A DNA stretch of 64,000 bases, taken from Odiellus spinosus (lineage: Eukaryota > Arthropoda > Arachnida > Opiliones > Phalangiidae). The translations under genes were made by a program, and so were the position numbers. Location of the stretch: contig OY987229.1 of assembly GCA_963920705.1 (NCBI GenBank), positions 21,147,728 to 21,211,727 on the forward strand, given 5' to 3'. Under the pieces are notes generated by a model. That model did not search any database. It was given only the letters and a program-made list of their open reading frames with translations, and was not told the origin of the DNA. This document shows positions 8,898-43,127 of this stretch, piece after piece (position 1 is the stretch's first letter; each line of letters begins with the position of its first letter).

Positions 8898-9233
8898 CAG
8901 ACGCCGATGAAACCCTCCTTTGAAGTCTATTACTCCCTGGTCTTGTCTACCCCCTCTCTGTATGGGTTAGTTTCAAAAAGCGCGATTCGTACGCCTCCTA
9001 ACGGTAGATATTTTCGGAGCGGGAGTTCGTCGAACGAATATCTCTATCAGCCTTGGAGTTCGTCAAAAAAACGTCGTCGTTTGTGGAGAGAGAGAATTTC
9101 CAATTTTGCGTAGACAGGGGGTATGAAGTAAGACCCCTCTGATCTCGTAAAATTGTGAGTTTTACCCATACAGAGAGGAGCGCTAAATCGAACATTAGAG
9201 TAGTAGACTTCAAAGGAGGGTTTCCCGTTTCTG
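8898..9233 (+). mobile_element. 337-bp MITE family, copy 1
   Basis: Terminal inverted repeats of about 37 bp start CAGACGCCGATGAAACCCTC (family form CAGAAGCCGATG) and close with the complement. This is the most diverged of seven copies: its right end reads CCCGTTTCTG and no clean target duplication remains. A second internal inverted pair (CTCTCTGTATGGGT / ACCCATACAGAGAG) sits inside the termini, as in the other copies. No coding capacity. Confidence 0.9.
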
Positions 9234-9929: not shown

Positions 9930-12900
9930 CTAAAATTTACATCCTTCATATTTATCAACAATAGCGAAGTAGGCTTTCCATACTTCCGGATCTTGAACGC
10001 AGACTGCTCCCCCGCCACGATTTTTTTGAGAATTCTAAGTTACGGATAAGAAAATGAAGGTAAAAAATTATTATTTTTGAAACTGAGGTTAACTGTTGTT
10101 TCGAGTAAATGTAGCGCTAAGTATTAAAACTTCTTACCATTCTATTTATATCAGCGACGCACGCCCATGACCCGAACCCGGTTTGGGTTACCGCCCATTT
10201 ACTGTGATCCACAGTTCGAGGAAAAGAGACCATCTGCGGAGTCGTTTTGCCACGGAATTTTATTTCAACTTCGTCAACGTTGTAGACGACGTACTTGTCC
10301 TTACAGTCCACGTCCAATTTTGTACCGGCGCCATTTCTCCACGTTTCGACCAGCAATGGGGATTTCAAATTAGGGGCTATCGCGTCTTCGTACAAATCTG
10401 TTCAAAGCCCAAAAATTTATGCTAAGTAGGTTGAATTGAGATTACAAGTACTAGGTAAGTTGAATCAAAAAACTTTACGGATTTCGAGTACTCGATTTAT
10501 TCGAGTAATTCTGATTATTCAAATGAGCTCTTATTATTTGTAATCGAGTAATCGAGAAAGAAAATGGGATTCTCGCTTAGCCTTCCTAATCTTCCACTAG
10601 AGCAGGGTGACTACTGAGAGTGTGAAAACCCTACATAGGAAATATACTTAATTTCTTTGCGAAATATAGGAAATTATAGGAAGAATTTTATGTAAAATAT
10701 AGGATAAAATAGGAAGAAATAAGTGTAAAATATAGGATAAAGTAAGAACCATGTTTATTATTACATCACAACTCTCACCACCGGTTTAAACATGGTATTA
10801 ATATGATCCAATTGTTTAAATAGTATGGAATTTTACAGACTATTTTAACTGGAAAATGTACAGTTAAGCTAAAATAATCTTATACAGCCACAGCTGACAG
10901 TATGATTTAGAACTTTACCCTTAACTAGAGATTTTGAGTAGAAATATAGGAGATTATAGGAATTGCCATTAAATTATAGGAGAAAATAGGAAGGAGGTGA
11001 AAATATATGAAAAAATAGGAAATATAGTGGTCACCCTGCTAGAGCTGAAAATATTTGCGATTTTGCTAGCTAGGAAACTAAAATTAATTAATTTCAAGCG
11101 TCCTTGTCAAATTAACTTCTCTTTAACAATTTATACATTGCAAGCCTAATTTATTAAAAAAAAAAAAAAAAAAAGGTTACCTTCTGCCCATTTGGAATGC
11201 TTGGCAAAAGCTAAAAACTTCTTTCCACCCGAACTTTGTATCACTTGGCTGATATTAAAAGGGGGTTTCTTCACGTAAGACGGACGATTTCCACTAAAAA
11301 ATGATCTCATCTCGGGGGTCAATGATTGCATGAATGGTTGACTATTTCTTCCATAAATTTTGGGCTTGTTGTAACGCATCAAAGTCACTGAAACATATGA
11401 GAAATTTTTATTGCAGATCAATTTCAATAGATGAAAATTACGATTTCATTACCTATTTTCGGTATGACGCTGAAGTTGATGGTAATACATAATGCTGATT
11501 GCCCATTACTTTTAGCATTATCCGGAAAATCGTATTTTCCATCTTCGGGCTTGAAAGGATATCTTGGTACGCTATGTACTAGCCAAAATCCAGTTTTACC
11601 ATCCGTTGCCAAAATACCTGGTTCGAATAATTTCATTAAATTTAAAAAGTGATTTTTTTTTGATAAGTATTACCAGACGTCTATCATTTTATTCCATAGA
11701 AGTAAACAACGCCCCATAACTTAATACTATCAGCAAAGGGCCAGGTAAAGGTACTAGCCGAAAAAGTCATAATCCCTGAGTTTAGGTGGGTTACTTAGTA
11801 ACAGTATTTTATAGATGCTTACTTTTACATTATATGGCCTAACCCTTTATTTTGCACCTGGCTGGTACAAGAATCTTAACATTGACGTCACACGTGGCCA
11901 GCGCATAAATAGCTCGTGCCACGTGTGGCAAACTCTCTTACACTTACGCCCCTGGCTGGTCGCTGACCAAGACCTTTTTCTAAGTTGGTCTCCTCACCCA
12001 CGTGGTCCTTCGGGGTCCCGCACTTTTTCGCGTTCACCGAACTTAGAATCTTCTACGCTGACTTAAATTAATATGTGCGCGTCTGTTGCGCGCGTTATCC
12101 CGCTAACTTTCAACGGAAAGTAAAAACTGTAATTATTTTAATATGCCAGCCAGGGTTTTTAAACTTTTAGTGTTTTTATTATTTTTATTTTGTTAGTAGA
12201 TAATTAAAATTATATATTAACTAGCAAAACCTTTATATTCATATTTTATATCTAATGACGACGAGCTTCATATATATTTAACTTTAATTAATACCACTAG
12301 ACATTTAACTGACCTTAACGTTTCACCCTCCCTTTAAACTTAACTAATAACTTTAACTCCCTTTAATTATAAATCTCGTCTCAACTTTTATAAAGTGATA
12401 AAGTGTTGGTATTAGTACCTTTGGTATGACCAAATGTTCCAGCCGAAGAGGATTTGTTAGGTTCTTGATCATTGTAAATAATATAAGCAATCTTCTGTAA
12501 TTGTAACGCGAATAATAAGTGGTTATCATCTTATCAATCTTATTTGAATAATTGTACTGTCACATTCAACTTGTTTGAAATTTTATCTTTAAAGGGAGAA
12601 TGCAACCTAACAATTGATTTTTAATCGATTTCAAATAGGCCTAATGCTATCTCAATTTTTCTCAATCTCAATTTTTCTCAATCTCAATTTTTCTCAATCT
12701 CAATTTTTCTCAATCTCAATTTTTCTCAATCTCAATTTTTCTCAATCTCAATTTTTCTCAATCTCAATTTTTCTCAATCTCAATTTTTCTCAATCTCAAT
12801 TTTTCTCAATCTCAATTTTTCTCAATCTCAATTTTTCTCAATCTCAATTTTTCTCAATCTCAATTTTTCTCAATCTCAATTTTTCTCAATCTCAATTTTT

Positions 12901-15900
12901 CTCAATCTCAATTTTTCTCAATCTCAATTTTTCTCAATCTCAATTTTTCTCAATCTCAATTTTTCTCAATCTCAATTTTTCTCAATCTCAATTTTTCTCA
13001 ATCTCAATTTTTCTCAATCTCAATTTTTCTCAATCTATATTTTTCTCAATCTATATTTTTCTCAATCTATATTTTTCTCAATCTATATTTTTCTCAATCT
13101 ATATTTTTCTCAATCTATATTTTTCTCAATCTATATTTTTCTCAATCTATATTTTTCTCAATCTCAATTTTTCTCAATCTCAATTTTTCTCAATCTCAAT
13201 TTTTCTCAATCTCAATTTTTCTCAATCTCAATTTTTCTCAATCTCAATTTTTCTCAATCTCAATTTTTCTCAATCTCAATTTTTCTCAATCTCAATTTTT
13301 TCTCAATCTCAATTTTTTCTCAATCTCAATTTTTTCTCAATCTCAATTTTTTCTCAATCTCAATTTTTTCTCAATCTCAATTTTTTCTCAATCTCAATTT
13401 TTTCTCAATCTCAATTTTTTCTCAATCTCAATTTTTTCTCAATCTCAATTTTTTCTCAATCTCAATTTTTTCTCAATCTCAATTTTTTCTCAATCTCAAT
13501 TTTTTCTCAATCTCAATTTTTTCTCAATCTCAATTTTTTCTCAATCTCAATTTTTTCTCAATCTCAATTTTTTCTCAATCTCAATTTTTTCTCAATCTCA
13601 ATTTTTTCTCAATCTCAATTTTTTCTCAATCTCAATTTTTTCTCAATCTCAATTTTTTCTCAATCTCAATTTTTTCTCAATCTCAATTTTTTCTCAATCT
13701 CAATTTTTTCTCAATCTCAATTTTTTCTCAATCTCAATTTTTTCTCAATCTCAATTTTTTCTCAATCTCAATTTTTTCTCAATCTCAATTTTTTTCTCAA
13801 TCTCAATTTTTTTCTCAAACTCAATTTTTTTCTCAAACTCAATTTTTTTCTCAAACTCAATTTTTTTCTCAAACTCAATTTTTTTCTCAAACTCAATTTT
13901 TTTCTCAAACTCAATTTTTTTCTCAATCTCAATTTTTTCTCAATCTCAATTTTTCTCGTTTTTTCTTTACAAAGAGACAACGATGACTCGTATCACATGC
14001 TCGTTAGTGAATTCTTTCGTCAACGTCCAGACTGTAATATTGCACGATTTTAACACTAGGCTAATGAGCTTTTAAATAGACACTTCCACAGAAGGATGAT
14101 TTATATAAAATTCTGATATTACTAACAGCTCGGTTATTAATTATTTGCGAATAGGTTTGACCGAAAGCGGAAGTGAGTTGTTCCACACTATCGTCAGAAA
14201 GCACCCATTTCGACTGTGAAACTTTGTTGTTGCCGACATCGAGGTACGAATAGGCTTCCCCTAAGGCGATCAATTTATTTTTTGATCCAGAGTCTTGAGG
14301 TAGCTTGTAGATTATCTGCCTAAAATAAAAAAAAAATCTATTTTTAATGCTTAAGCTTTAAATTCCTCTCGCGAAGCTTAGCAAAGGGTACCAGAATCAA
14401 AATTTCATTGTTATAGAATTTGGACATCAAATTAAATTTTAATCGTTGTTTTCCATTTCGCGTGAGTTATTGGCTTCGTGGTATAAAGGACTCTGACGCG
14501 GTTAAGGAGGTGGGGGGGATCAAATTCAGATATTGTTAAGGAATGTGCGTCTTAAATTAAAGGGTTATTGTTATTTCTTTTCTTGCGTGAAGTAAGGCTT
14601 CGTGGTAAAAAGGGCTATCGCGGAGCAATATGCGCCTTAATCGAATGCAGCTGGAAGTTATGTTTGTATCGTTTTCGTTAGTTTACATTTATTTAATCCT
14701 AGATTCGTGGTAGATCGAGGGGGCGGTTCGAAAGATATCAAGTTTTCTCAATCTCAAGTTTTCTCAATCTCAAGTTTTCTCAATCTCAAGTTTTCTCAAT
14801 CTCAAGTTTTCTCAATCTCAAGTTTTCTCAATCTCAAGTTTTCTCATTCTCAAGTTTTCTCAATCTCAAGTTTTCTCAATCTCAAGTTTTCTCAATCTCC
14901 AGTTTTCTCAATCTCCATTTTTCTCAATCTCCATTTTTCTCAATCTCCATTTTTCTCAATCTCCATTTTTCTCAATCTCCATTTTTCTCAATCTCCATTT
15001 TTCTCAATCTCCATTTTTCTCAATCTCCATTTTTCTCAATCTCCATTTTTCTCAATCTCCATTTTTCTCAATCTCCATTTTTCTCAATCTCCATTTTTCT
15101 CAATCTCCATTTTTCTCAATCTCCATTTTTCTCAATCTCCATTTTTCTCAATCTCCATTTTTCTCAATCTCCATTTTTCTCAATCTCCATTTTTCTCAAT
15201 CTCAATTTTTCTCAATCTCAATTTTTCTCAATCTCAATCTCAATCTCAAAAATCTCAATTTTCCAAATCTCAAAAATCTCAATTTTCCAAATCCAAAAAT
15301 CTCAATTTTCCAAATCTCAAAAATCTCGATTTTCCAAATCTCAAAAATCTCGATTTTCCAAATCTCAAAAATCTCGATTTTCCAAATCTCAAAAATCTCG
15401 ATTTTCCAAATCTCAAAAATCTCGATTTTCCAAATCTCAAAAATCTCGATTTTCCAAATCTCAAAAATCTCGATTTTCCAAATCTCAAAAATCTCGATTT
15501 TCCAAATCTCAAAAATCTCGATTTTCCAAATCTCAAAAATCTCGATTTTCCAAATCTCAAAAATCTCGATTTTCCAAATCTCAAAAATCTCGATTTTCCA
15601 AATCTCAAAAATCTCGATTTTTCAAATCTCAAAAATCTCGATTTTTCAAATCTCAAAAATCTCGATTTTCCAAATCTCAAAAATCTCGATTTTTCAAATC
15701 TCAAAAATCTCGATTTTTCAAATCTCAAAAATATCGATTTTTCAAATCTCAAAAATATCGATTTTTCAAATCTCAAAAATCTCGATTTTTCAAATCTCAA
15801 AAATCTCGATTTTTCAAATCTCAAAAATCTCGATTTTTCAAATCTCAAAATTCTCGATTTTTCAAATCTCAAAAATCTCGATTTTTCAAATCTCAAAAAT

Positions 15901-18900
15901 CTCGATTTTTCAAATCTCAAAAATCTCGATTTTTCAAATCTCAAAAATCTCGATTTTTCAAATCTCAAAAATCTCGATTAAAAATCTCGATTTTTCAAAT
16001 CTCAAAAATCTCGATTTTTCAAATCTCAAAAATCTCGATTTTTCAAATCTCAAAAATCTCGATTTTTCAAATCTCAAAAATCTCGATTTTTCAAATCTCA
16101 AAAATCTCGATTTTTCAAATCTCAAAAATCTCGATTTTTCAAATCTCAAAAATCTCGATTTTTCAAATCTCAAAAATCTCGATTTTTCAAATCTCAAAAA
16201 TCTCGATTTTTCAAATCTCAAAAATCTCGATTTTTCAAATCTCAAAAATCTCGATTTTTCAAATCTCAAAAATCTCGATTTTTCAAATCTCAAAAATCTC
16301 GATTTTTCAAATCTCAAAAATCTCGATTTTTCAAATCTCAAAAATCTCGATTTTTCAAATCTCAAAAATCTCGATTTTTCAAATCTCAAAAATCTCGATT
16401 TTTCAAATCTCAAAAATCTCGATTTTTCAAATCTCAAAAATCTCGATTTTTCAAATCTCAAAAATCTCGATTTTTCAAATCTCAAAAATCTCGATTTTTC
16501 AAATCTCAAAAATCTCGATTTTTCAAATCTCAAAAATCTCGATTTTTCAAATCTCAAAAATCTCGATTTTTCAAATCTCAAAAATCTCGATTTTTCAAAT
16601 CTCAAAAATCTCGATTTTTCAAATCTCAAAAATCTCGATTTTTCAAATCTCAAAAATCTCGATTTTTCAAATCTCAAAAATCTCGATTTTTCAAATCTCA
16701 AAAATCTCGATTTTTCAAATCTCAAAAATCTCGATTTTTCAAATCTCAAAAATCTCGATTTTTCAAATCTCAAAAATCTCGATTTTTCAAATCTCAAAAA
16801 TCTCGATTTTTCAAATCTCAAAAATCTCGATTTTTCAAATCTCAAAAATCTCGATTTTTCAAATCTCAAAAATCTCGATTTTTCAAATCTCAAAAATCTC
16901 GATTTTTCAAATCTCAAAAATCTCGATTTTTCAAATCTCAAAAATCTCGATTTTTCAAATCTCAAAAATCTCGATTTTTCAAATCTCAAAAATCTCGATT
17001 TTTCAAATCTCAAAAATCTCGATTTTTCAAATCTCAAAAATCTCGATTTTTCAAATCTCAAAAAATCTCGATTTTTCAAATCTCAAAAAATCTCGATTTT
17101 TCAAATCTCAAAAAATCTCGATTTTTCAAATCTCAAAAAATCTCGATTTTTCAAATCTCAAAAAATCTCGATTTTTCAAATCTCAAAAAATCTCGATTTT
17201 TCAAATCTCAAAAAATCTCGATTTTTCAAATCTCAAAAAATCTCGATTTTTCAAATCTCAAAAAATCTCGATTTTTCAAATCTCAAAAAATCTCGATTTT
17301 TCAAATCTCAAAAAATCTCGATTTTTCAAATCTCAAAAAATCTCGATTTTTCAAATCTCAAAAAATCTCGATTTTTCAAATCTCAAAAAATCTCGATTTT
17401 TCAAATCTCAAAAAATCTCGATTTTTCAAATCTCAAAAAATCTCGATTTTTCAAATCTCAAAAATCTCGATTTTTCAAATCTCAAAAATCTCGATTTTTC
17501 AAATCTCAAAAATCTCGATTTTTCAAATCTCAAAAATCTCGATTTTTCAAATCTCAAAAATCTCGATTTTTCAAATCTCAAAAATCTCGATTTTTCAAAT
17601 CTCAAAAATCTCGATTTTTCAAATCTCAAAAATCTCGATTTTTCAAATCTCAAAAATCTCGATTTTTCAAATCTCAAAAATCTCGATTTTTCAAATCTCA
17701 AAAATCTCGATTTTTCAAATCTCAAAAATCTCGATTTTTCAAATCTCAAAAATCTCGATTTTTCAAATCTCAAAAATCTCGATTTTTCAAATCTCAAAAA
17801 TCTCGATTTTTCAAATCTCAAAAATCTCGATTTTTCAAATCTCAAAAATCTCGATTTTTCAAATCTCAAAAATCTCGATTTTTCAAATCTCAAAAATCTC
17901 GATTTTTCAAATCTCAAAAATCTCGATTTTTCAAATCTCAAAAATCTCGATTTTTCAAATCTCAAAAAATCTCGATTTTTCCCAATCCCAATTTTCCCAA
18001 TCCAATCCTAATTGTATTTTTACAGGGGGTGTATTTATCGATCGGTCGTTTTTACAGGGGGTGTATTTATCGATCGGTCGTTTTTACAGAGGGTGTATTT
18101 ATCGGTCGTTTTTACAGGGGGTGTATTTATCCATCGGTCGTTTTTACAGGGAGTGTATTTATCCATCGGTCGTTTTTACAGGGGTGTATTTATCCATCGG
18201 TCGTTTTTACAGGGGGTGTATTTATCCATCGGTCGTTTTTACAGGGGGTGTATTTATCGATCGGTTGTTTTTACAGGGGGTGTATTTATCGATCGGTCGA
18301 TTTTACAGGGGTTGTATTTATCGATCGGTCGTTTTTACAGGGGGTGTATTTATCGATCGGTCGTTTTTACAGGGGGTTTATTTATCGATCGGTCGTTTTT
18401 ACAGGGGTGTATTTATCGATCGGTCGTTTTAACAGGGGGTGAATTTATCGATCGTTTTTACAGGAGGTGTATTTATCCATCGGTCGTTTTTACAGGGGGT
18501 GTTTTTATCCATCGGTCGTTTCTACAGGGGGTGTTTTTATCCATCGGTCGTTTTTACAGGGGGTGTATTTATCCATCGGTCGTTTTTACAGGGGGTGTAT
18601 TTATCGATCGGTCGTTTTTACAGGGGGTGTATTTATCGATCGGTCGTTTTTACAGGGGGTGTATTTATCGATCGGTCGTTTTTACAGGGGGTGTATTTAT
18701 CGATCGGTCGTTTTTACAGGGGGTGTATTTATCGGTCGTTTTTACAGGGGGTGTATTTATCGATCGTTTTTACAGGAGGTGTATTTATCCATCGGTCGTT
18801 TTTACAGGGGTTGTTTTTATCCATCGGTCGTTTTTACAGGGGGTGTATTTATCCATCGGTCGTTTTTACAGGGGGTGTATTTATCCATCGGTCGTTTTTA

Positions 18901-21900
18901 CAGGGGGTGTATTTATCGATCGGTCGTTTTTACATGGGGTGTATTTATCGATCGGTCGTTTTTACAGGGGGTGTATTTATCGATCGGTCGATTTTACAGG
19001 GGGTGTATTTATCGATCGGTCATTTTTACAGGGGTGTATTTATCGATCGGTCGTTTTTACAGGGGGTGTATTTATCGATCGGTCGTTTTTACAGGGGGTG
19101 TATTTATCGATCGGTCGTTTTTACAGGGGGTGTATTTATCGATCGGTCGTTTTTACAGGGGGTGTATTTATCGATCGGTCGTTTTTACAGGGGGTGTATT
19201 TATCGATCGGTCGTTTTTACAGGGGGTGTATTTATCGATCGGTCGTTTTTACAGGGGGTGTATTTATCGATCGGTCGTTTTTACAGGGTGTATATTTATC
19301 GATCGGTCGTTTTTACAGGGGGTGTATTTATCGATCGGTCGTTTTTACAGGGGGTGTATTTTTACAGGGGGGTATTTTTACAGGGGGGTATTTTTAAAGG
19401 GGTTTTTTTTACAGGGGGGTATTTTTACAGGGGGGTATTTTTACAGGGGGGTATTTTTACAGGGGGGTATTTTTACAGGGGGTATTTTTACAGGGGGGTA
19501 TTTTTACAGGGGGGTATTTTTACAGGGGGGTATTTTTACAGGGGGTATTTTTACAGGGGGGTATTTTTACGGGGGGTATTTTTACGGGGGGTATTTTTAC
19601 GGGGGGTATTTTTACGGGGGGTATTTTTACGGGGGGTGTATTTTTACGGGGGGTGTATTTTACGGGGGTTGTATTTTACAGGGGGTGTATTTTTACAGGG
19701 GGTGTAATTTTACAGGGGGTGTATTTTTACAGGGGGTGTATTTTTACAGGGGGTGTATTTTTACAGGGGGTGTATTTTTACAGGGGGTGTATTTTTACAG
19801 GGGGTGTATTTTTACAGGGGGTGTATTTTTACAGGGGGTGTATTTTTACAGGGGGTGTATTTTTACAGGGGGTGTATTTTTACAGGGGGTGTATTTTTAC
19901 AGGGGGTGTATTTTTACAGGGGGTGTATTTTTACAGGGGGTGTATTTTTACAGGGGGTGTATTTTTACAGGGGGTGTATTTTTACAGGGGGTGTATTTTT
20001 ACAGGGGGTGTATTTTTACAGGGGGTGTATTTTTACAGGGGGTGTATTTTTACAGGGGGTGTATTTTTACAGGGGGTGTATTTTTACAGGGGGTGTATTT
20101 TTACAGGGGGTGTATTTTTACAGGGGGTGTATTTTTACAGGGGGTGTATTTTTACAGGGGGTGTATTTTTACAGGGGGTGTATTTTTACAGGGGGTGTAT
20201 TTTTACAGGGGGTGTATTTTTACAGGGGGTGTATTTTTACAGGGGGTGTATTTTTACAGGGGGTGTATTTTTACAGGGGGTGTATTTTTACAGGGGGTGT
20301 ATTTTTACAGGGGGTGTATTTTTACAGGGGGTGTATTTTTACAGGGGGTGTATTTTTACAGGGGGTGTATTTTTACAGGGGGTGTATTTTTACAGGGGGT
20401 GTATTTTTACAGGGGGTGTATTTTTACAGGGGGTGTATTTTTACAGGGGGTGTATTTTTACAGGGGGTGTATTTTTACAGGGGGTGTATTTTTACAGGGG
20501 GTGTATTTTTACAGGGGGTGTATTTTTACAGGGGGTGTATTTTTACAGGGGGTGTATTTTTACAGGGGGTGTATTTTTACAGGGGGTGTATTTTTACAGG
20601 GGGTGTATTTTTACAGGGGGTGTATTTTTACAGGGGGTGTATTTTTACAGGGGGTGTATTTTTACAGGGGGTGTATTTTTACAGGGGGTGTATTTTTACA
20701 GGGGGTGTATTTTTACAGGGGGTGTATTTTTACAGGGGGTGTATTTTTACAGGGGGTGTATTTTTACAGGGGGTGTATTTTTACAGGGGGTGTATTTTTA
20801 CAGGGGGTGTATTTTTACAGGGGGTGTATTTTTACAGGGGGTGTATTTTTACAGGGGGTGTATTTTTACAGGGGGTGTATTTTTACAGGGGGTGTATTTT
20901 TACAGGGGGTGTATTTTTACAGGGGGGGGGTGTATTTTTACAGGGGGTGTATTTTTACAGGGGGTGTATTTTTACAGGGGGTGTATTTTTACAGGGGGTG
21001 TATTTTTACAGGGGGTGTATTTTTACAGGGGGTGTATTTTTACAGGGGGTGTATTTTTACAGGGGGTGTATTTTTACAGGGGGTGTATTTTTACAGGGGG
21101 GTATTTTTACAGGGGTGTATTTTTACAGGGGGTGTATTTTTACAGGGGGTGTATTTTTACCTGTATCCCATTTTTCCCAATCCCAATTTTCCCAATTGTA
21201 TTTTTACAGGGGGTGTATTTATCGATCGTTCGATTTTACAGTGGGTTTATTTATCGATCGGTCGTTTTTACAGGGGTTGTATTTATCGATCGGTCGTTTT
21301 TACAGGGGGTGTATTTATCGATCGGTCGTTTTTACAGGGGGTGTATTTATCGATCGGTCGTTTTAACAGGGGGTGTATTTATCGATCGGTCGTTTTTACA
21401 AGGGGTGAATTTATCGATCGGTCGTTTTTACAGGGGGTGTATTTATCGATTGGTCGTTTTTACAGGGGGTGTTTTTATCGATCGGTCGTTTTTACAGGGG
21501 GTGTATTTATCGATCGGTCGTTTTTACAGGGGGTGTATTTATCGATCGGTCGTTTTTACAGGGGGTGTATTTATCGATCGGTCGTTTTTACAGGGGGTGT
21601 ATTTATCGATCGGTCGTTTTTACAGGGGGTGTATTTATCGATCGGTCGTTTTTACAGGGGGTGTATTTATCGATCGGTCGTTTTTACAGGGGGTGTATTT
21701 ATCGATCGGTCGTTTTTACAGGGGGTGTATTTATCGATCGGTCGTTTTTACAGGGGGTGTATTTATCGATCGGTCGTTTTTACAGGGGGTGTATTTATCG
21801 ATCGGTCGTTTTTACAGGGGGTGTATTTATCGATCGGTCGTTTTTACAGGGGGTGTATTTATCGATCGGTCGTTTTTACAGGGGGTGTATTTATCGATCG

Positions 21901-24900
21901 GTCCTTTTTACAGGGGGTGTATTAATCGATCGGTCCTTTTTACAGGGGGTGTATTTATCGATCGGTCCTTTTTACAGGGAGTGTATTTATCGATCGGTCC
22001 TTTTTACAGGGGGTGTATTTATCGATCGGTCCTTTTTACAGGGGGTGTATTTATCGATCGGTCCTTTTTACAGGGGGTGTATTTATCGATCGGTCCTTTT
22101 TACAGGGGGTGTATTTATCGATCGGTCCTTTTTACAGGGGGTGTATTTATCGATCGGTCCTTTTTACAGGGGGTGTATTTATCGATCGGTCCTTTTTACA
22201 GGGGGTGTATTTATCGATCGGTCCTTTTTACAGGGGGTGTATTTATCGATCGGTCCTTTTTACAGGGGGTGTATTTATCGATCGGTCCTTTTTACAGGGG
22301 GTGTATTTATCGATCGGTCCTTTTTACAGGGGGTGTATTTATCGATCGGTCCTTTTTACAGGGGGTGTATTTATCGATCGGTCCTTTTTACAGGGGGTGT
22401 ATTTATCGATCGGTCGTTTTTACAGGGGGTGTATTTATCGATCGGTCGTTTTTACAGGGGGTGTATTTATCGATCGTTCGTTTTTACAGGGGGTGTATTT
22501 ATCGATCGTTCGTTTTTACAGGGGGTGTATTTATCGATAAGTCGTTTTTACAGGGGGTGTATTTATCGATCGGTCGTTTTTACAGGGGGTGTATTGATCG
22601 ATAAATACACCCCCTGTAAAAACGACCGATCGATAAATACACCCCCTGTAAAAACGACCGATCGATAAAATACACCCCCTGTAAAAACGACCGATCGATA
22701 AATACGCCCCCTGTAAAAACGACCGATCGATAAATACACCACCTGTAAAAACGACCGATCGATAAATACACACCCTGTAATAACGACCGATCGATAAATA
22801 CACCCCTGTAAAAACGACCGATCGATAAATTCACCCCCTGTAAAAACGACCGATCGATAAATATACCCCCATGTAAAAATATACCCCCATGTAAAAATAT
22901 ACCCCCCTGTAAAAATACACCCCCTGTAAAAATACACCCCCTGTAAAAATACACCCCCTGTAAAAATACACCCCCTGTAAAAATACACCCCCTGTAAAAA
23001 TACACCCCCTGTAAAAATACACCCCCTGTAAAAATACACCCCCTGTAAAAATACACCCCCTGTAAAAATACACCCCCTGTAAAAATACACCCCCTGTAAA
23101 AATACACCCCCTGTAAAAATACACCCCCTGTAAAAATACACCCCCTGTAAAAATACACCCCCTGTAAAAATACACCCCCTGTAAAAATACACCCCCTGTA
23201 AAAATACACCCCCTGTAAAAATACACCCCCTGTAAAAATACACCCCCTGTAAAAATACACCCCCTGTAAAAATACACCCCCTGTAAAAATACACCCCCTG
23301 TAAAAATACACCCCCTGTAAAAATACACCCCCTGTAAAAATACACCCCCTGTAAAAATACACCCCCTGTAAAAATACACCCCCTGTAAAAATACACCCCC
23401 TGTAAAAATACACCCCCTGTAAAAATACACCCCCTGTAAAAATACACCCCCTGTAAAAATACACCCCCTGTAAAAATACACCCCCTGTAAAAATACACCC
23501 CCTGTAAAAATACCCCCTGTAAAAATACCCCCCTGAAAAAATACACCCCCTGTAAAAATACACCCCCTGTAAAAATACACCCCCTGTAAAATTACACCCC
23601 CTGTAAAATTACACTCCCTGTAAAATTACACCCCCTGTAAAAATACACCCCCTGTAAAAATACACCCCCTGTAAAAATACCCCCCTGTAAAAATACCCCC
23701 CTGTAAAAATACCCCCCTGTGAAAAATACCCCCCTGTAAAAATACCCCCTGTAAAAATACACCCCCTGTAAAAACGACCGATCGATAAATACACCCCCTG
23801 TAAAAACGACCGATCGATAAATACACCCCCTGTAAAAACGACCGATCGATAAATACACCCCCTGTAAAAACGACCGATCGATAAATACACCCCCTGTAAA
23901 AACGACCGATCGATAAATAACCGATCGATAAATACACCCCCTGTAAAAATACACCCCTGTAAAAATACACCCCCTGTAAAAATACACCCAGAGTAAAAAT
24001 ACACCCCCTGTAAAAATACACCCCCTGTAAAAATACACCCCCTGTAAATATACACCCCCTGTAAAAATACACCCCCTGTAAAAATACACCCCCTGTAAAA
24101 ATACACCCCCTGTAAAAATACACCCCCTGTAAAAATACACCCCCTGTAAAAATACACCCCCTGTAAAATTACACCCCCTGTAAAAATACACCCCCTGTAA
24201 AAATACACCCCCTGTAAAAATACACCCCCTGTAAAAATACCCCCCTGTAAAAATACCCCCCTGTAAAAATACACCCCCTGTAAAAATACACCCCCTGTAA
24301 AAATACACCCCCTGTAAAAATACACCCCCTGTAAAAATACACCCCCTGTAAAAATACACCCCCTGTAAAAATACACCCCCTGTAAAAATACACCCCCTGT
24401 AAAAATACACCCCCTGTAAAAATACACCCCCTGTAAAAATACACCCCCTGTAAAAATACACCCCCTGTAAAAATACACCCCCTGTAAAAATACACCCCCT
24501 GTAAAAATACACCCCCTGTAAAAATACACCCCCTGTAAAAATACCCCCTGTAAAAATACCCCCCTGAAAAAATACACCCCCTGTAAAAATACACCCCCTG
24601 TAAAAATACACCCCCTGTAAAATTACACCCCCTGTAAAATTACACTCCCTGTAAAATTACACCCCCTGTAAAAATACACCCCCTGTAAAAATACACCCCC
24701 TGTAAAAATACCCCCCTGTAAAAATACCCCCCTGTAAAAATACCCCCCTGTGAAAAATACCCCCCTGTAAAAATACCCCCTGTAAAAATACACCCCCTGT
24801 AAAAACGACCGATCGATAAATACACCCCCTGTAAAAACGACCGATCGATAAATACACCCCCTGTAAAAACGACCGATCGATAAATACACCCCCTGTAAAA

Positions 24901-27900
24901 ACGACCGATCGATAAATACACCCCCTGTAAAAACGACCGATCGATAAATACACCAACTGTAAAAACGACCGATCGATAAATACACCCCCTGTAAAAATAC
25001 ACCCCTGTAAAAATACACCCCCTGTAAAAATACACCCAGAGTAAAAATACACCCCCTGTAAAAATACACCCCCTGTAAAAATACACCCCCTGTAAATATA
25101 CACCCCCTGTAAAAATACACCCCCTGTAAAAATACACCCCCTGTAAAAATACACCCCCTGTAAAAATACACCCCCTGTAAAAATACACCCCCTGTAAAAA
25201 TACACCCCCTGTAAAATTACACCCCCTGTAAAAATACACCCCCTGTAAAAATACACCCCCTGTAAAAATACACCCCCTGTAAAAATACCCCCCTGTAAAA
25301 ATACCCCCCTGTAAAAATACACCCCCTGTAAAAATACACCCCCTGTAAAAATACACCCCCTGTAAAAATACACCCCCTGTAAAAATACACCCCCTGTAAA
25401 AATACACCCCCTGTAAAAATACACCCCCTGTAAAAATACCCCCCCTGTAAAAATACCCCCCTGTAAAAATACACCCCCTGTAAAAATACACCCCCTGTAA
25501 AAATACACCCCCTGTAAAAATACACCCCCTGTAAAAATACACCCCCTGTAAAAATACACCCCCTGTAAAAATACACCCCCTGTAAAAATACACCCCCTGT
25601 AAAAATACACCCCCTGTAAAAATACACCCCCTGTAAAAATACCCCCCTGTAAAAACGACCGATCGATAAATACACCCCCTGTAAAAACGACCGATCGATA
25701 AATACACCCCCTGTAAAAACGACCGATCGATAAATACACCCCCTGTAAAAACGACCGATCGATAAATACACCCCCTGTAAAAACGACCGATCGATAAATA
25801 CACCCCCTGTAAAAACGACCGATCGATAAATACACCCCCTGTAAACACGACCGATCGATAAACACACCCCCTGTAGAAACGACCGATCGATAAATACACC
25901 CCCTGTAAAAACGACCGATCGATAAATACACCCCCTGTAAAAACGACCGATCGATAAATACACCCCCTGTAAAAACGACCGATCGATAAATACACCCCCT
26001 GTAAAAACGACCGATCGATAAATACACCCCCTGTAAAAACGACCGATCGATAAATACACCCCCTGTAAAAACGACCGATCGATAAATACACCCCCTGTAA
26101 AAATACCCCCCTGTAAAAATACACCCCCTGTAAAAATACACCCCCTGTAAAAATACACCCCCTGTAAAAATACACCCCCTGTAAAAATACACCCCCTGTA
26201 AAAATACACCCCCTGTAAAAATACACCCCCTGTACAAATACACCCCCTGTAAAAATACACCCCCTGTAAAAATACACCCCCTGTAAAAATACACCCCCTG
26301 TAAAAATACACCCCCTGTAAAAATACACCCCCTGTAAAAATACACCCCCTGTAAAAATACACCCCCTGTAAAAATACACCCCCTGTAAAAATACACCCCC
26401 TGTAAAAATACACCCCCTGTAAAAATACACCCCCTGTAAAAATACACCCCCTGTAAAAATACACCCCCTGTAAAAATACACCCCCTGTAAAAATACACCC
26501 CCTGTAAAAATACACCCCCTGTAAAAATACACCCCCTGTAAAAATACACCCCCTGTAAAAATACACCCCCTGTAAAAATACACCCCCTGTAAAAATACAC
26601 CCCCTGTAAAAATACACCCCCTGTAAAAATACACCCCCTGTAAAAATACACCCCCTGTAAAAATACACCCCCTGTAAAAATACACCCCCTGTAAAAATAC
26701 ACCCCCTGTAAAAATACACCCCCTGTAAAAATACACCCCTTGTAAAAATACACCCCCTGTAAAAATACACCCCCTGTAAAAATACACCCCCTGTAAAAAT
26801 ACACCCCCTGTAAAAATACACCCCCTGTAAAAATACACCCCCTGTAAAAATACACCCCCTGTAAAAATACACCCCCTGTAAAAATACACCCCCTGTAAAA
26901 ATACACCCCTTGTAAAAATACACCCCCTGTAAAAATACACCCCCTGTAAAAATACACCCCCTGTAAAAATACACCCCCTGTAAAAATACACCCCCTGTAA
27001 AAATACACCCCCTGTAAAAATACACCCCCTGTAAAAATACACCCCCTGTAAAAATACACCCCCTGTAAAAATACACCCCCTGTAAAAATACACCCCCTGT
27101 AAAAATACACCCCCTGTAAAAATACACACCCTGTAAAAATACACCCCCTGTAAAAATACACCCCCTGTAAAAATACACAACCTGTAAAAATACACCCCCT
27201 GTAAAGATACCCCCTGTAAAAATACCCCCCTGTAAAAATACACCCCCTGCAAAAACGACCGATCGATAAATACACCCCCTGTAAAAACGACCGATCGATA
27301 AATACACCCCCTGTAAAAACGACCGATCGATAAATACACCCCCTGTTAAAACGACCGATCGATAAATACACCCCCTGTAAAAACGACCGATCGATAAATA
27401 CACCCCCTGTAAACACGACCGATCGATAAACACACCCCCTGTAAAAACGACCGATCGATAAATACACCCCCTGTAAAAACGACCGATCGATAAATACACC
27501 CCCTGTAAAAACGACCGATCGATAAATACACCCCCTGTAAAAACGACCGATCGATAAATACACCCCCTGTAAAAACGACCGATCGATAAATACACCCCCT
27601 GTAAAAACGACCGATCGATAAATACACCCCCTGTAAAAACGACCGATCGATAAATACACCCCCTGTAAAAACGACCGATCGATAAATATACCCCCTGTAA
27701 AAACGACCGATCGATAAATACACCCCCTGTAAAAACGACCGATCGATAAATACACCCCCTGTAAAAACGACCGATCGATAAATACACCCCCTGTAAAAAG
27801 ACCGATCGATAAATACACCCCCTGTAAAAACGACCGATCGATAAATACACCAACTGTAAAAACGACCGATCGATAAATACACCCCCTGTAAAAATACCCC

Positions 27901-30900
27901 CCTGTAAAAAATACACCCCCTGTAAAAAATACACCCCCTGTAAAAAATACACCCCCTGTAAAAAATACACCCCCTGTAAAAAATACACCCCCTGTAAAAA
28001 ATACACCCCCTGTAAAAATACACCCCCTGTAAAAATACACCCCCTGTAAAAATACACCCCCTGTAAAAATACACCCCCTGTAAAAATACACCCCCTGTAA
28101 AAATACACCCCCTGTAAAAATACACCCCCTGTAAAAATACACCCCCTGTAAAAATACACCCCCTGTAAAAATACACCCCCTGTAAAAATACACCCCCTGT
28201 AAAAATACACCCCCTGTAAAAATACACCCCCTGTAAAAATACACCCCCTGTAAAAATACACCCCCTGTAAAAATACACCCCCTGTAAAAATACACCCCCT
28301 GTAAAAATACACCCCCTGTAAAAATACACCCCCTGTAAAAATACACCCCCTGTAAAAATACACCCCCTGTAAAAATACACCCCCTGTAAAAATACACCCC
28401 CTGTAAAAATACACCCCCTGTAAAAATACACCCCCTGTAAAAATACACCCCCTGTAAAAATACACCCCCTGTAAAAATACACCCCCTGTAAAAATACACC
28501 CCCTGTAAAAATACACCCCCTGTAAAAATACACCCCCTGTAAAAATACACCCCCTGTAAAAATACACCCCCTGTAAAAATACACCCCCTGTAAAAATACA
28601 CCCCCTGTAAAAATACACCCCCTGTAAAAATACACCCCCTGTAAAAATACACCCCCTGTAAAAATACACCCCCTGTAAAAATACACCCCCTGTAAAAATA
28701 CACCCCCTGTAAAAATACACCCCCTGTAAAAATACACCCCCTGTAAAAATACACCCCCTGTAAAAATACACCCCCTGTAAAAATACACCCCCTGTAAAAA
28801 TACACCCCCTGTAAAAATACACCCCCTGTAAAAATACACCCCCTGTAAAAATACACCCCCTGTAAAAATACACCCCCTGTAAAAATACACCCCCTGTAAA
28901 AATACACCCCCTGTAAAAATACACCCCCTGTAAAAATACACCCCCTGTAAAAATACACCCCCTGTAAAAATACACCCCCTGTAAAAATACACCCCCTGTA
29001 AAAATACACCCCCTGTAAAAATACACCCCCTGTAAAAATACACCCCCTGTAAAAATACACCCCCTGTAAAAATACACCCCCTGTAAAAATACACCCCCTG
29101 TAAAAATACACCCCCTGTAAAAATACACCCCCTGTAAAAATACACCCCCTGTAAAAATACACCCCCTGTAAAAATACACCCCCTGTAAAAATACACCCCC
29201 TGTAAAAATACACCCCCTGTAAAAATACACCCCCTGTAAAAATACACCCCCTGTAAAAATACACCCCCTGTAAAAATACACCCCCTGTAAAAATACACCC
29301 CCTGTAAAAATACCCCCATGTAAAAATACCCCCTGTAAAAATACCCCCCTGTAAAAATACACCCCTGTAAAAATACACCCCCTGTAAAAACGACCGATCG
29401 ATAAATACACCCCCTGTAAAAACGACCGATCGATAAATACACCCCCTGTAAAAACGACCGATCGATAAATACACCCCCTGTTAAAACGACCGATCGATAA
29501 ATACACCCCCTGTAAAAACGACCGATCGATAAATACACCCCCTGTAAAAACGACCGATCGATAAATACACCAACTGTAAAAACGACCGATCGATAAATAC
29601 ACCCCCTGTAAAAATACCCCCCTGTAAAAAATACACCCCCTGTAAAAATACACCCCCTGTAAAAATACACCCCCTGTAAAAATACACCCCCTGTAAAAAT
29701 ACACCCCCTGTAAAAATACACCCCCTGTAAAAATACACCCCCTGTAAAAATACACCCCCTGTAAAAATACACCCCCTGTAAAAATACACCCCCTGTAAAA
29801 ATACACCCCCTGTAAAAATACACCCCCTGTAAAAATACACCCCCTGTAAAAATACACCCCCTGTAAAAATACACCCCCTGTAAAAATACACCCCCTGTAA
29901 AAATACACCCCCTGTAAAAATACACCCCCTGTAAAAATACACCCCCTGTAAAAATACACCCCCTGTAAAAATACACCCCCTGTAAAAATACACCCCCTGT
30001 AAAAATACACCCCCTGTAAAAATACACCCCCTGTAAAAATACACCCCCTGTAAAAATACACCCCCTGTAAAAATACACCCCCTGTAAAAATACACCCCCT
30101 GTAAAAATACACCCCCTGTAAAAATACACCCCCTGTAAAAATACACCCCCTGTAAAAATACACCCCCTGTAAAAATACACCCCCTGTAAAAATACACCCC
30201 CTGTAAAAATACACCCCCTGTAAAAATACACCCCCTGTAAAAATACACCCCCTGTAAAAATACACCCCCTGTAAAAATACACCCCCTGTAAAAATACACC
30301 CCCTGTAAAAATACACCCCCTGTAAAAATACACCCCCTGTAAAAATACACCCCCTGTAAAAATACACCCCCTGTAAAAATACACCCCCTGTAAAAATACA
30401 CCCCCTGTAAAAATACACCCCCTGTAAAAATACACCCCCTGTAAAAATACACCCCCTGTAAAAATACACCCCCTGTAAAAATACACCCCCTGTAAAAATA
30501 CACCCCCTGTAAAAATACACCCCCTGTAAAAATACACCCCCTGTAAAAATACACCCCCTGTAAAAATACACCCCCTGTAAAAATACACCCCCTGTAAAAA
30601 TACACCCCCTGTAAAAATACACCCCCTGTAAAAATACACCCCCTGTAAAAATACACCCCCTGTAAAAATACACCCCCTGTAAAAATACACCCCCTGTAAA
30701 AATACACCCCCTGTAAAAATACACCCCCTGTAAAAATACACCCCCTGTAAAAATACACCCCCTGTAAAAATACACCCCCTGTAAAAATACACCCCCTGTA
30801 AAAATACACCCCCTGTAAAAATACACCCCCTGTAAAAATACACCCCCTGTAAAAATACACCCCCTGTAAAAATACCCCCATGTAAAAATACCCCCTGTAA

Positions 30901-33848
30901 AAATACCCCCTGTAAAAATACACCCCTGTAAAAATACACCCCCTGTAAAAACGACCGATCGATAAATACACCCCCTGTAAAAACGACCGATCGATAAATA
31001 CACCCCCTGTAAAAACGACCGATCGATAAATACACCCCCTGTTAAAACGACCGATCGATAAATACACCCCCTGTAAAAACGACCGATCGATAAATACACC
31101 CCCTGTAAACACGACCGATCGATAAACACACCCCCTGTAAAAGCGACCGATCGATAAATACACCCCCTGTAAAAACGACCGATCGATAAATACACCCCCT
31201 GTAAAAACGACCGATCGATAAATACACCCCCTGTAAAAACGACCGATCGATAAATACACCCCCTGTTAAAACGACCGATCGATAAATACACCCCCTGTAA
31301 AAACGACTGATCGATAAATACACCCCCTGTAAACACGACCGATCGATAAACACACCCCCTGTAAAAACGACCGATCGATAAATACACCCCCTGTAAAAAC
31401 GACCGATCGATAAATACACCCCCTGTAAAAACGACCGATCGATAAATACACCCCCTTTAAAAACGACCGATCGATAAATACACCCCCTGTAAAAACGACC
31501 GATCGATAAATATACCCCCTGTAAAAACGACCGATCGATAAATATACCCCCTGTAAAAACGACCGATCGATAAATACACCCCCTGTAAAAACGACCGATC
31601 GATAAATACACCCCCTGTAAAAACGACCGATCGATAAATACACCCCCTGTAAAAACGACCGATCGATAAATACACCCCCTGTAAAAACGACCGATCGATA
31701 AATACAGCCCCTGTAAAAAAGACCGATCGATAAATACACCCCCTGTAAAAACGACCGATGGATAAATACACCCCCTGTAAAAACGACCGATGGATAAATA
31801 CACCCCCTGTAAAAACGACCGATGGATAAATACACCCCCTGTAAAAACGACCGATGGATAAAAACACCCCCTGTAAAAACGACCGATGGATAAATACACC
31901 TCCTGTAAAAACGATCGATAAATACACCCCCTGTAAAAACGACCGATCGATAAATACACCCCCTGTAAAAACGACCGATCGATAAATACAACCCCTGTAA
32001 AAACGACCGATCGATAAATACACCCCCTGTAAAATCGACCGATCGATAAATACATCCCCTGTAAAAACGACCGATCGATAAATACACCCCCTGTAAAAAC
32101 GACCGATCGATAAATACACCCCCTGTAAAAACGACCGATGGATAAATACACTTCCTGTAAAAACGATCAATAAATACACCTCCTGTAAAAACGATCGATA
32201 AATACACCCCCTGTAAAAACGCCCGATCGATAAATACATCCCCTGTAAAAACGACCGATCGATAAATACACCCCCTGTAAAAATACAATTGGGATTGGAT
32301 TGGGAAAATTGGGATTGGGAAAATTGGGATTGGGAAAATTGGGATTGGGAAAATTGGGACTGGGAAAATTGGTATTGGGAAAATACCCCCCCCCCCCCTG
32401 TAAAAATACCCCCCTGGAAAAATACACCCCCTGTAAAAATACACCCCCTGTAAAAATACACCCCCTGTAAAAATACACCCCCTGTAAAAATACACCCCCT
32501 GTAAAAATTACACCCCCTGTAAAAATTACACCCCCTGTAAAAATTACACCCCCTGTAAAAATTACACCCCCTGTAAAAATTACACCCCCTGTAAAAATTA
32601 CACCCCCTGTAAAAAATACACCCCCTGTAAAAATACACCCCCTGTAAAAATACACCCCCAGAAAAAATACACCCCCTGTAAAAATACACCCCTTGAAAAT
32701 TAGAGAGATTTTTGAGGTTTGGAAAATTGAGATTTTTAAAAATTGAGATTTTTAAAAATTGAGATTTTTAAAAATTGAGATTTTTAAAAATTGAGATTTT
32801 TAAAAATTGAGATTTTTAAAAATTGAGATTTTTAAAAATTGAGATTTTTAAAAATTGAGATTTTTAAAAATTGAGATTTTTAAAAATTGAGATTTTTAAA
32901 AATTGAGATTTTTAAAAATTGAGATTTTTAAAAATTGAGATTTTTAAAAATTGAGATTTTTAAAAATTGAGATTTTTAAAAATTGAGATTTTTAAAAATT
33001 GAGATTTATAAAAATTGAGATTTATAAAAATTGAGATTTATAAAAATTGAGATTTATAAAAATTGAGATTTTTAAAAATTGAGATTTTTAAAAATTGAGA
33101 TTTTTAAAAATTGAGATTTTTAAAAATTGAGATTTTTAAAAATTGAGATAATTTATTTTACTGGGGGTGTATTTATTTTTTTTACAAGGTGTACCCCTTG
33201 TAAAATTCATATTATTTATTTTACAGGGGGTCTATTTATTTTTTTTTTTACAAAATAACGAAATATTTTTGGTAAGTTATATTACTGTTTTTCTCATTAT
33301 TTTAGCATTCTTAATCGATTAAAAATAGGTTTTTTTGGCCTTTTATTCTCCTTTTAAACTCACGCTAAATGGGAGATTACAAACTTGATTTTTATGCGCA
33401 CATTCCTTAATAATAAAACCTTTTTCCGAAGAGCGCATGTAGTTTTAATCAACTAATAAATTTATTTAAATTAAAATAAGTCCCGACGGTACTTGGAATA
33501 TTTTCCCTAGGATGTAATTAAATTTTTTTTTTTTTTTGGTTTCACGTTACTCAATATTCAACATTCGCGTACGTTTTTTGGCATGAACGTGATTCCGAAA
33601 ATAAATTAAAAATGTGCTACATTTTTGGCTCATAGTTCTGTTAAGTTTTGGTGTATAATTGATTGAATTTTACTTCAACTTTAACTTTCTCTTAAATTCT
33701 TATTTTAATAAATAAAAATTACTAATTACCAGTCCATGTCTTTTCCACTTTCATCTTTGCAAGCGAGTTTGGCATTTAAATTCGTAGCACAAAACAAAAT
33801 TACAGATAAAATGTTAACTAATTTAACTGTCATTTTGCACAAAAACAT
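9930..33848 (-). CDS. Deoxyribonuclease II, seven exons, giant intron 1
   Basis: Acid lysosomal endonuclease (DNase II family, phospholipase-D-like fold) that degrades engulfed DNA. Minus-strand exons: 33848-33730, 14319-14127, 12494-12419, 11617-11453, 11387-11181, 10397-10138 and 10034-9930. All are GT-AG and all phases agree. The product is 374 aa, or 369 aa if translation starts at the second ATG (33833), which has the better CAAAATG context. Exon 1 encodes a signal peptide ([16 protein letters not shown]), then the family start [11 protein letters not shown]. Exon 2 continues it with IIYKLP. Exon 3 carries YNDQEP and the first active-site HxK motif (GHTKG). Exon 4 has [13 protein letters not shown]. 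Exon 6 has [11 protein letters not shown] and the second HxK (VDHSKWAV). Exon 7 has the C-terminal RGGGAVC motif. Both catalytic motifs are intact, so the gene looks functional. Intron 1 is 19,410 bp of minisatellite; intron 2 (1632 bp) holds another array. Confidence 0.93.
10603..11038. mobile_element. hAT-like MITE in DNase II intron 5
   Basis: The ends read CAGGGTGACTAC and GTGGTCACCCTG, matching the CAGGG..CACCCTG style of hAT elements. It is flanked by CTAGAG on both sides (10597-10602 and 11039-11044), consistent with an 8-bp hAT duplication that has lost its edge bases. The interior carries many copies of TATAGGA or ATAGGA on the plus strand near both ends, which may be subterminal transposase-binding repeats. 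There is no coding capacity. It lies in the 783-bp intron between exons 5 and 6. Confidence 0.75.
11618..12418 (-). other. DNase II intron 3
   Basis: GT-AG intron of 801 bp. 11700-11790 is a fragment of the dispersed element seen at 39528 (ACTATCAGCAAAGGGCCAGG). Around 11888-11930 there is an inverted pair CACACGTGGC / GCCACGTGTG. No exon is missing here, because the exon phases on both sides close. Confidence 0.75.
12588..12650 (+). mobile_element. Left-end fragment of fold-back element family
   Basis: Begins TTTAAAGGGAGAAT and continues through TTTTTAATCGATT, like the left terminus of the fold-back element at 62024-62511 and the inverted terminus at 33251-33358. It directly precedes the intron-2 minisatellite. 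Similarity weakens after the first 14 bp. Confidence 0.5.
12651..13957. repeat. 16-18 bp CTCAATTTTT minisatellite (DNase II intron 2)
   Basis: Tandem units built on AATTTTTCTCAATCTC. Unit length rises in blocks: 16 bp with five T (12651-13295, with a TATATTTTT variant block at about 13032-13155), 17 bp with six T (about 13296-13787), and 18 bp with seven T and CTCAAACTC (about 13788-13930). It is stop-free on the plus strand, which creates a spurious 479-codon frame of FSQSQFF / ISIFLNLN repeats. It lies wholly within intron 2 of DNase II (12495-14126). Confidence 0.97.
14320..14740 (-). other. 3' end of DNase II intron 1, unique part
   Basis: The acceptor is at 14321-14320 (TTTATTTTAG on the minus strand). 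On the plus strand two diverged copies of a unit of about 120 bp are visible. They share the order GCGTGA, GGCTTCGTGGTA, AAAGG (about 14460 and 14585). A third partial TTCGTGGTA occurs at 14704. A 14-bp word, TTAAGGAATGTGCG (about 14537), recurs inverted at about 33397-33410, just outside the far end of the arrays. Confidence 0.6.
14741..15246. repeat. 16-bp minisatellite, CTCAAG then CTCCAT variants
   Basis: Tandem TTTTCTCAATCTCAAG units (14741 to about 14905), then ATTTTTCTCAATCTCC units (to about 15195), then a few CTCAAT units identical to the intron-2 array. The same monomer family therefore occurs on both sides of DNase II exon 2. Confidence 0.95.
15247..17975. repeat. 24/25-bp minisatellite, TCTCGATTTTTCAAA core
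   Basis: More than 100 near-identical units with core TCTCGATTTTTCAAA and a following TCTCAAAAA. It starts with CTCAATTTTCC and CTCGATTTTCC variants and becomes uniform CTCGATTTTTC from about 15.8 kb. Units are 24 bp except for a block at about 17057-17460, where they gain one A (25 bp). Because 24 is a multiple of three, both strands carry long spurious frames (for example FEKSRFLR repeats on the minus strand). Confidence 0.97.
17976..22597 (+). repeat. Left arm of giant palindrome: 32-mer and 17-mer arrays
   Basis: A spacer with CCCAATCCCAATTTTCCC (17982-18010) is followed by 32-bp units (core ATCGATCGGTCG plus TTTTTACAGGGGGTGTATT) to about 19355. A transition zone of GGGGGGTATTTTTACA units runs to about 19680. 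About 87 copies of the 17-bp unit ACAGGGGGTGTATTTTT follow to 21160, then a second CCCAATCCCAATTTTCCC spacer (21165-21197), then 32-mers again to 22597. A block of about 16 units at 21895-22395 reads GGTCC instead of GGTCG. Some early units read TATCCATCGG (18130-18250, 18470-18600, 18780-18900). Non-coding, inside DNase II intron 1. Confidence 0.95.
22598..32700 (-). repeat. Right arm of giant palindrome: inverted 32-mer and 17-mer arrays
   Basis: The same monomers as the left arm, all in reverse orientation (CACCCCCTGTAAAAATA, and CGACCGATCGAT for the 32-mer). 32-mer blocks (about 22598-22865, 23760-23935, 24790-24985, 25650-26095, 27250-27890, 29380-29610, 30950-32275) alternate with 17-mer blocks. 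The block around 27900-28010 uses 18-mers with one extra A. Near the far end lie TATCCATCGG-type units (31740-31890) and a CCCAATCCCAATTTTCCC spacer (32286-32390, inverted), mirroring the left arm. A final set of 17-mers, several with ATTACACC variants, ends at about 32695. Open frames of up to 2056 codons here are artefacts. Confidence 0.95.
32701..33150. repeat. 16-bp minisatellite, TTTTTAAAAATTGAGA
   Basis: About 27 tandem copies of TTTTTAAAAATTGAGA with a small TTTATAAAAATTGAGA block (about 33001-33065). On the minus strand it reads TCTCAATTTTTAAAAA, recalling the CTCAATTTTT arrays at the other end of the intron. It borders the palindrome on the exon-1 side. Confidence 0.95.
33151..33250. 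other. Degenerate G-arm monomer remnants
   Basis: Contains ACTGGGGGTGTATTTATTTT and TTTACAGGGGGTCTATTTATT in plus orientation, interrupted by ACAAGGTGTACCCCTTGT. These are decayed monomers in the orientation opposite to the adjacent right arm. Confidence 0.6.
33251..33358 (-). mobile_element. Right-end fragment of fold-back element family
   Basis: Reads through ATATTTTTGGTAAGTTATAT, TTTTTCTCATTATTTTAGC and TTCTTAATCGATTAAAAATA, ending CTCCTTTTAAA. It matches 62411-62511 at roughly 90% over about 105 bp by eye. It closes the minisatellite region on the exon-1 side, in inverted orientation to the fragment at 12588. Confidence 0.8.
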
Positions 33849-34245: not shown

Positions 34246-34582
34246 CAGAAGCCGATGAAACCCTCCTTTGAAGTCTATTACTCCCGGGTCTTGTCTACCC
34301 CTCTCTGTATGGGTTATTCTCAAAAGGCGCGATTCGTACGCCTCCTAACGGTAGATGTTTTCTGAGCGGGAGCTCGTCGAGCGAATATCTCTAACAGCCT
34401 TGCAGTTCGTCTAAAAAACGTCGTCGTTTGTGGAGAGAGAGAATTTCCAATTTTCCGTAGACAGGGGGGATGAAGTAGGACCCCTTCTAACTCGTAAAAT
34501 TGGGAATTTTACCCATACAAAGAGGAGCGCTATATGGAACATTGGAGTAGTAGACTTCAAAGGAGGGTTTCATCGGCTTCTG
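34246..34582 (+). mobile_element. 337-bp MITE family, copy 2
   Basis: Begins CAGAAGCCGATGAAACCCTC and ends with its complement, with perfect 7-bp target duplications ATTATTC at 34239-34245 and 34583-34589. It lies about 400 bp upstream of DNase II exon 1. Non-coding. Confidence 0.95.
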
Positions 34583-43120: not shown

Positions 43121-43127
43121 CTTAAAT

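Follow-up and report, generated by a model that had tools for sequence, protein, structure and literature searches.

The window, by which we mean the whole 64-kb stretch of DNA analysed, harbors on its minus strand a seven-exon gene for DNase II, a DNA-digesting enzyme, accompanied by zinc-finger, GLE1-like, and chemoreceptor-type reading frames and by several inverted-repeat elements. The exons of the DNase II gene are arranged as follows:

33848-33730, minus: exon 1, with the start codon and a signal-peptide-like stretch, ending in TG of a Trp codon
14319-14127, minus: exon 2, encoding QIIYKLP...IINNRA
12494-12419, minus: exon 3, with the first HxK motif GHTKG, whose last Gly is completed by exon 4
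11617-11453, minus: exon 4
11387-11181, minus: exon 5
10397-10138, minus: exon 6, with the second HxK motif DHSKW
10034-9930, minus: exon 7, with the RGGGAVC tail and the stop codon

All six introns (19410, 1632, 801, 65, 783, and 103 bp for introns 1-6) have GT...AG borders, and the joined coding sequence of 1125 bp contains a single, terminal stop codon and encodes 374 amino acids. The inner exon borders were picked by eye for frame and homology, and were then joined and checked by script. Because the borders were chosen in this manner, the open frame is no independent test of the model, while the match to the family profile described below is independent. A second, in-frame ATG of exon 1 is located at 33833 (residue 6) and may represent the true start. 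A preliminary description of this DNA had joined seven minus-strand exons from 33848 to 9930 into a full DNase II in frame, with both HxK motifs and the RGGG tail, and this seven-exon gene is confirmed here. The donor at 33730/33729 and the acceptor at 14320/14319 are likewise as described. The same junction had been said to restore GKDMDW-IIYKLP; its coordinates stand, but the actual sequence is GKDMDW-Q-IIYKLP, which is one residue longer.

The preliminary description had also named a PF03265 search of the joined translation as a check, and this search returns a match at E 2e-99 with 333.3 bits against a cut-off of 23. The Pfam domain (DNase_II) covers residues 30-372 and positions 2-326 of the 326 in the profile. 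At E 0.001, PDB sequences yield a single match, chain 5i3e_A ('Putative deoxyribonuclease-2', E 1.1e-39), which has the same sequence as 5unb. This alignment runs gap-free over the exon 1/exon 2 junction and places both HxK motifs opposite their counterparts, which read GHTKG and DHAKW in 5i3e_A. The 5i3e / 5unb protein of Burkholderia and the protein encoded here are alike in the whole domain, the two HxK motifs, and the RGGG tail. Further, PMC4148230 gives DHSKW as the proposed catalytic 5-mer of DNase II, lists a reference (number 13) with the two HxK motifs of DNase II in its title, and ascribes an N-terminal signal peptide to many DNase II members, with exceptions named.

The sequence features by which a DNase II is recognized, a full-domain profile match above the curated cut-off together with two HxK motifs, are both present. 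Exon 1 contains a hydrophobic N-terminal stretch, recognized both visually and with a simple residue-count rule, and likely encodes a signal peptide. Compared with known DNase II proteins of PF03265, the protein is unremarkable; its N-terminus looks signal-peptide-like by eye, and the enzyme is probably an ordinary animal DNase II. No account of this DNase II gene was found in the literature, of which the search covered a part. Among viral contigs, a single-protein search, which finds close relatives only, returned no relative of the protein, and in prokaryote contigs none of 12 pattern matches proved to be a relative by tblastn, neither collection being suited to judging the gene. Additionally, the 64-kb window yielded no tRNAs and no RNA families at gathering score.

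Exon 1 lies unusually far from exon 2, and DNase II families can be large, with 125 members predicted in Trichinella spiralis according to PMC4148230. Both points would agree with exon 1 being the remnant of a tandem paralogue, the rest of which was lost during repeat expansion, in which case the first exon proper to exon 2 would be missing or located elsewhere. We regard such an origin as highly improbable, since the phase at the junction, the residue spacing, and searches of the window all argue against it. Exon 1 carries the first 11 residues of the DNase II domain and raises the PF03265 score from 314.7 to 333.3 bits, a gain of ~18 bits; for the exon 1-2 part alone, the score is 43.1 bits with exon 1 and 24.9 bits without it. 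Residue 30 corresponds to profile position 2 and residue 42 to position 14, leaving no net gap at the junction. Thus, the extra Q fits the family, as the profile spacing calls for one residue at this place. Searching the window on both strands for first exons of the same kind, defined as ATG exons 25-90 residues long that contain a hydrophobic stretch, carry a Cys close to their end, and finish in a phase-2 TG|GT, returned a single match, exon 1 itself, and no alternative. Moreover, tblastn of the DNase II protein against the window recovers only the seven exons at values better than E 1.2, which gives no hint of another DNase II copy in the window. These data point to exon 1 as a genuine part of the DNase II gene, and sequence analysis supports a complete gene split by a 19.4-kb minisatellite intron.

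The repeats of introns 1 and 2 are arranged as follows:

14320-33729, minus: intron 1, 19,410 bp, 94.5% tandem array
32723-33149: outer array, right, 16-bp unit AAAATTGAGATTTTTA, ~27 copies
22603-32692: inner array, right arm, 17-bp and 32-bp units, AAATACACCCCCTGTAA orientation on the plus strand
22550-22650: orientation flip, a near-palindrome about 22599/22600
18016-22602: inner array, left arm, 17-bp and 32-bp units, TTTTTACAGGGGGTGTA (17-bp unit) orientation on the plus strand
15242-17991: outer array, left, 24-bp unit AATCTCAAAAATCTCGATTTTCCA, ~114 copies
14743-15235: outer array, left, 16-bp unit TTTTCTCAATCTCCAT, ~31 copies
12649-13957: intron 2 array, 16-bp unit ATCTCAATTTTTCTCA, ~79 copies, GAGATT-type

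Tandem Repeats Finder assigns 18,347 of the 19,410 bp of intron 1 and 1,309 of the 1,632 bp of intron 2 (80%) to arrays, a count that bridges two gaps in its output (21161-21200 and 22603-22858). The second gap consists of 32-bp units by eye and forms the first 256 bp of the right inner arm, which continues as the row 22859-32692. At the two ends of intron 1, 581 and 424 nt fall outside the arrays. An intron of 19,410 bp made up almost entirely of tandem repeat, as previously described, is therefore borne out. The accompanying statement that nearby introns often measure 60-75 bp holds for the only two viewed, which were read by eye in one neighboring plus-strand gene (4769-4833, 65 bp; 4945-5019, 75 bp). 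The DNase II gene itself has one intron of 65 bp, and intron 1 is far above the range of its other introns (65-1632 bp). A separate tandem array at 305-1411 contains 35 copies of a 32-bp unit and is open in three frames on the plus strand.

The inversion of the intron 1 array near 22600 and the related array in intron 2 are new relative to the preliminary description. At 22599/22600 the orientation of the units flips, and the two sides mirror each other with 1 mismatch over the first 50 positions and 23 over 100. Related outer repeats of 16-24 bp flank both inner arms in opposite orientations. Thus, on the plus strand, 190 of the 191 occurrences of AATCTCAA lie between 12,000 and 18,000, and 26 of the 27 occurrences of TTGAGATT between 32,000 and 34,000. 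The intron 2 array has the same orientation as 14743-15235, and its RNA is complementary to that of 32723-33149. The outer 1.4 kb of the inner arms, compared in inverted orientation, are 95.4% identical over 1,373 aligned positions with 264 gap positions (MAFFT), the best blastn piece being 94.7% identical over 1,439, and the inner-arm edges share AATTGGGATTGGG-type flanking sequence, likewise inverted. The arms are unequal in length (4.6 versus 10.1 kb) and differ in block order. With its perfect 17-bp periodicity, their longest exact complementary stretch (1,219 bp) reflects homogeneous arrays and is by itself no proof of a recent copy. The repeat core is also matched singly elsewhere in the window, at 9114 and 44942 and, reversed, at 43238, 46995, and 54983; these matches were taken as chance.

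More than 10 kb of 17-bp units are hard to assemble, and the array may be mis-sized or mis-assembled. Both the near-palindrome at the flip and the 1,219-bp stretch, which occurs identical and inverted in both arms, could be taken to indicate that collapsed, chimeric, or foldback reads misled the assembly, either in the array length or at the inverted join near 22,600. This is unlikely in our judgment, given that the arms are not mirror images but differ in the lengths of the 32-bp blocks and in the order of 17/32/28 spacing. Furthermore, a read artefact should yield near-identical arms, whereas their outer 1.4 kb are ~5% apart. The 1,219-bp identity, being perfectly periodic, is alone no mark of copying, and the window is free of any N.

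The inverted layout also resembles that of Foldback-type DNA transposons, which include FB and Galileo of Drosophila and Tm1 of root-knot nematodes (PMC3169594, PMC3573991). According to these sources, Foldback elements have inverted multi-domain arms with tandem repeats, and the array shares with FB, Galileo, and Tm1 its inverted arms with tandem sub-repeats and its composite domains (PMC3169594). In addition, the edges of the inner arms are matched inverted copies. Even so, it appears improbable that the inverted composite array represents, or arose from, such a transposon inserted into intron 1. Comparison of the flanks 14691-14760 and 33141-33330 reveals no convincing target-site duplication; the longest word common to both flanks is the 8-mer TTTTCTCA, a repeat unit on the left side. 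Two degenerate unit copies lie beyond the right end (33160 and 33223), and the arms are unequal. No transposase match was obtained for the array ORF scanned (15279-15968), which belongs to no Pfam family. The scale differs as well, as one Tm1-like copy measures 1,080 bp in all in PMC3169594, compared with 19.4 kb for intron 1. The origin of the array is explained most simply by its plain growth together with an inversion or inverted duplication.

The 17-bp unit lacks stop codons in all three frames of the gene's sense strand. Array ORFs reach 2056 aa, e.g. at 25217-31387 on the minus strand. Since the unit is open in all three gene-sense frames, these long ORFs are most likely false, and an ORF such as that of 2056 aa might tempt gene finders.

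RNA pairing was predicted for eight array blocks, each represented by one 240-nt sample, and every pair was compared with 5 base shuffles. For the inner arms, the predicted duplex reaches -450.7 kcal/mol between the 17-bp blocks (shuffle mean -115.6) and -418.1 kcal/mol between the 32-bp blocks (shuffles -98.5). Within intron 1, the values for the 5' outer array against the two 3' outer arrays are -174.1 (shuffles -57.4) and -144.9 (-56.6), the latter being that of the 24-bp array. Other same-side pairs gain less; for example, the 24-bp array and that of intron 2 give -74.2 versus -34.7. The 24-bp outer array also pairs with itself (-203.0 versus -55.8 for shuffles; single-strand fold -96.4 versus -35.9), as does the 5' outer array (-84.8 versus -8.3), and consequently the outer arrays need not pair with each other. 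For the 5' outer array, exact complementarity is short, at 15 nt within intron 1 and 13 nt with intron 2. From these predictions, intron 1 pre-mRNA could fold on itself, most surely via the inner arms. In intron 1, acceptor-like TTTTTACAG occurs 458 times in the gene's sense, compared with 176 times on the opposite strand, and AATAAA occurs 9 times in the gene's sense. For normal expression, these possible false acceptors and poly-A signals would have to be bypassed. A duplex might hide the acceptor-like sites.

Exon 2 is flanked by mutually complementary arrays in introns 1 and 2. For the RNA of 32723-33149, which forms the 5' outer array, and that of 12649-13957, the predicted duplex is -199.7 kcal/mol, compared with a mean of -61.1 for the 5 shuffles. 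Pairing of these arrays over exon 2 would promote circular RNA by back-splicing, or skipping of the exon. PMC8516420 describes host genes of circular RNAs as featuring long introns with reverse-complement sequences, and the complementary arrays around exon 2 conform to this pattern. They differ in being tandem minisatellites rather than dispersed transposons. We consider this outcome decidedly unlikely for the DNase II transcript, as the 5' array also pairs with the 3' arrays of intron 1 and with itself, and pairing inside intron 1 would favor ordinary splicing. The short exact complementarity speaks against it as well, and a circle of exon 2 alone would comprise 193 nt. We also regard as very unlikely a further scheme in which the inverted arms would serve as an RNA switch for DNase II. 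Here, pairing within intron 1 would loop out ~18 kb, mask hundreds of TTTTTACAG, and join exon 1 to exon 2, while pairing between introns 1 and 2 would circularise or skip exon 2. If this scheme were true, array length would set DNase II output.

Our preferred reading, to which we assign a probability of about 0.85 on the sequence data, is that of one intact animal DNase II gene with an intron enlarged by array expansion and inversion. It draws on direct observation of the exon borders, the frame, the family match, the array content, and the inverted layout, together with the predicted pairing of arm samples. Exon 1 would be joined to exon 2 by removal of the 19,410-bp intron, whose growth probably involved both the expansion of short tandem repeats and one or more inversions or inverted duplications. 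The resulting order is outer GAGATT-type repeats, inner 17/32-bp units, the flip near 22,600, reversed inner units, and reversed outer repeats. We infer normal splicing of the pre-mRNA and no separate function for the array. Pairing of the arms would bring the exon ends effectively closer, with 581 + 424 nt outside the arrays, and would mask acceptor-like TTTTTACAG within the repeat. Counting against smooth splicing are the 458 TTTTTACAG and 9 AATAAA that intron 1 carries in the gene's sense, and the self-pairing of the outer arrays, the unequal arms, and the differing block order weigh against folding from end to end.

The layout is unusual, yet genes with repeat-filled introns are already known. 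The Drosophila Y-chromosome genes kl-3 and kl-5 have large introns of simple tandem repeats (PMC6508621, PMC11207136), and their exons are likewise parted by tandem-repeat introns. Their introns, however, reach megabases and the genes are Y-linked, whereas the intron of the DNase II gene measures 19.4 kb and its array is inverted about an inner point. The locus provides a clear small case, an enzyme gene in which a repeat intron of 19.4 kb stands next to introns measuring 65 to 1,632 bp; repeat masking and ORF calling could break such a gene model. Moreover, its inverted layout offers a cheap test of whether foldback arrays help or hinder the splicing of long introns.

Further genes and elements in the window are listed below:

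10589-11052: inverted-repeat element in intron 5 of the DNase II gene, with ends GCAGGGTGACYACT and TCCTATA-type repeats within
35202-37781, minus: C2H2 zinc-finger ORF
40151-42640, minus: C2H2 zinc-finger ORF
50472-52688, plus: GLE1-like ORF, 738 aa from stop to stop, intron-free
55315-57184, minus: two pieces matching chemoreceptor-type GPCR profiles (Srx/Srsx; Srw)
55913-56240: MITE-like inverted repeat between the two GPCR pieces
8909-9224: MITE-like copy
34246-34582: MITE-like copy
43122-43470: MITE-like copy
44727-45067: MITE-like copy
54884-55209: MITE-like copy
57980-59356: MITE-like copy
60800-61136: MITE-like copy

Pfam searches with 12 sequences from the window matched six, namely DNase II, the two zinc-finger ORFs, the GLE1-like ORF, and the two GPCR pieces, and gave no match for the other six. 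Together, the matches mark the DNA as animal, and the GPCR profiles give a hint, short of proof, of a nematode. The zinc-finger ORFs look like a tandem pair, and both end in (K/R)GIIDFINNDC(S/T)E. The MITE-like inverted-repeat element with ends CAGAAGCCGATGAAACCCTCC is present in at least seven copies in the window, six of which span 316-349 bp and one 1,377 bp. By eye, and with the elements trimmed to CAG...CTG, a 7-bp target duplication is seen in six of the seven. Two copies lie near the DNase II gene, one ~400 bp before exon 1 and one beyond the 3' end.
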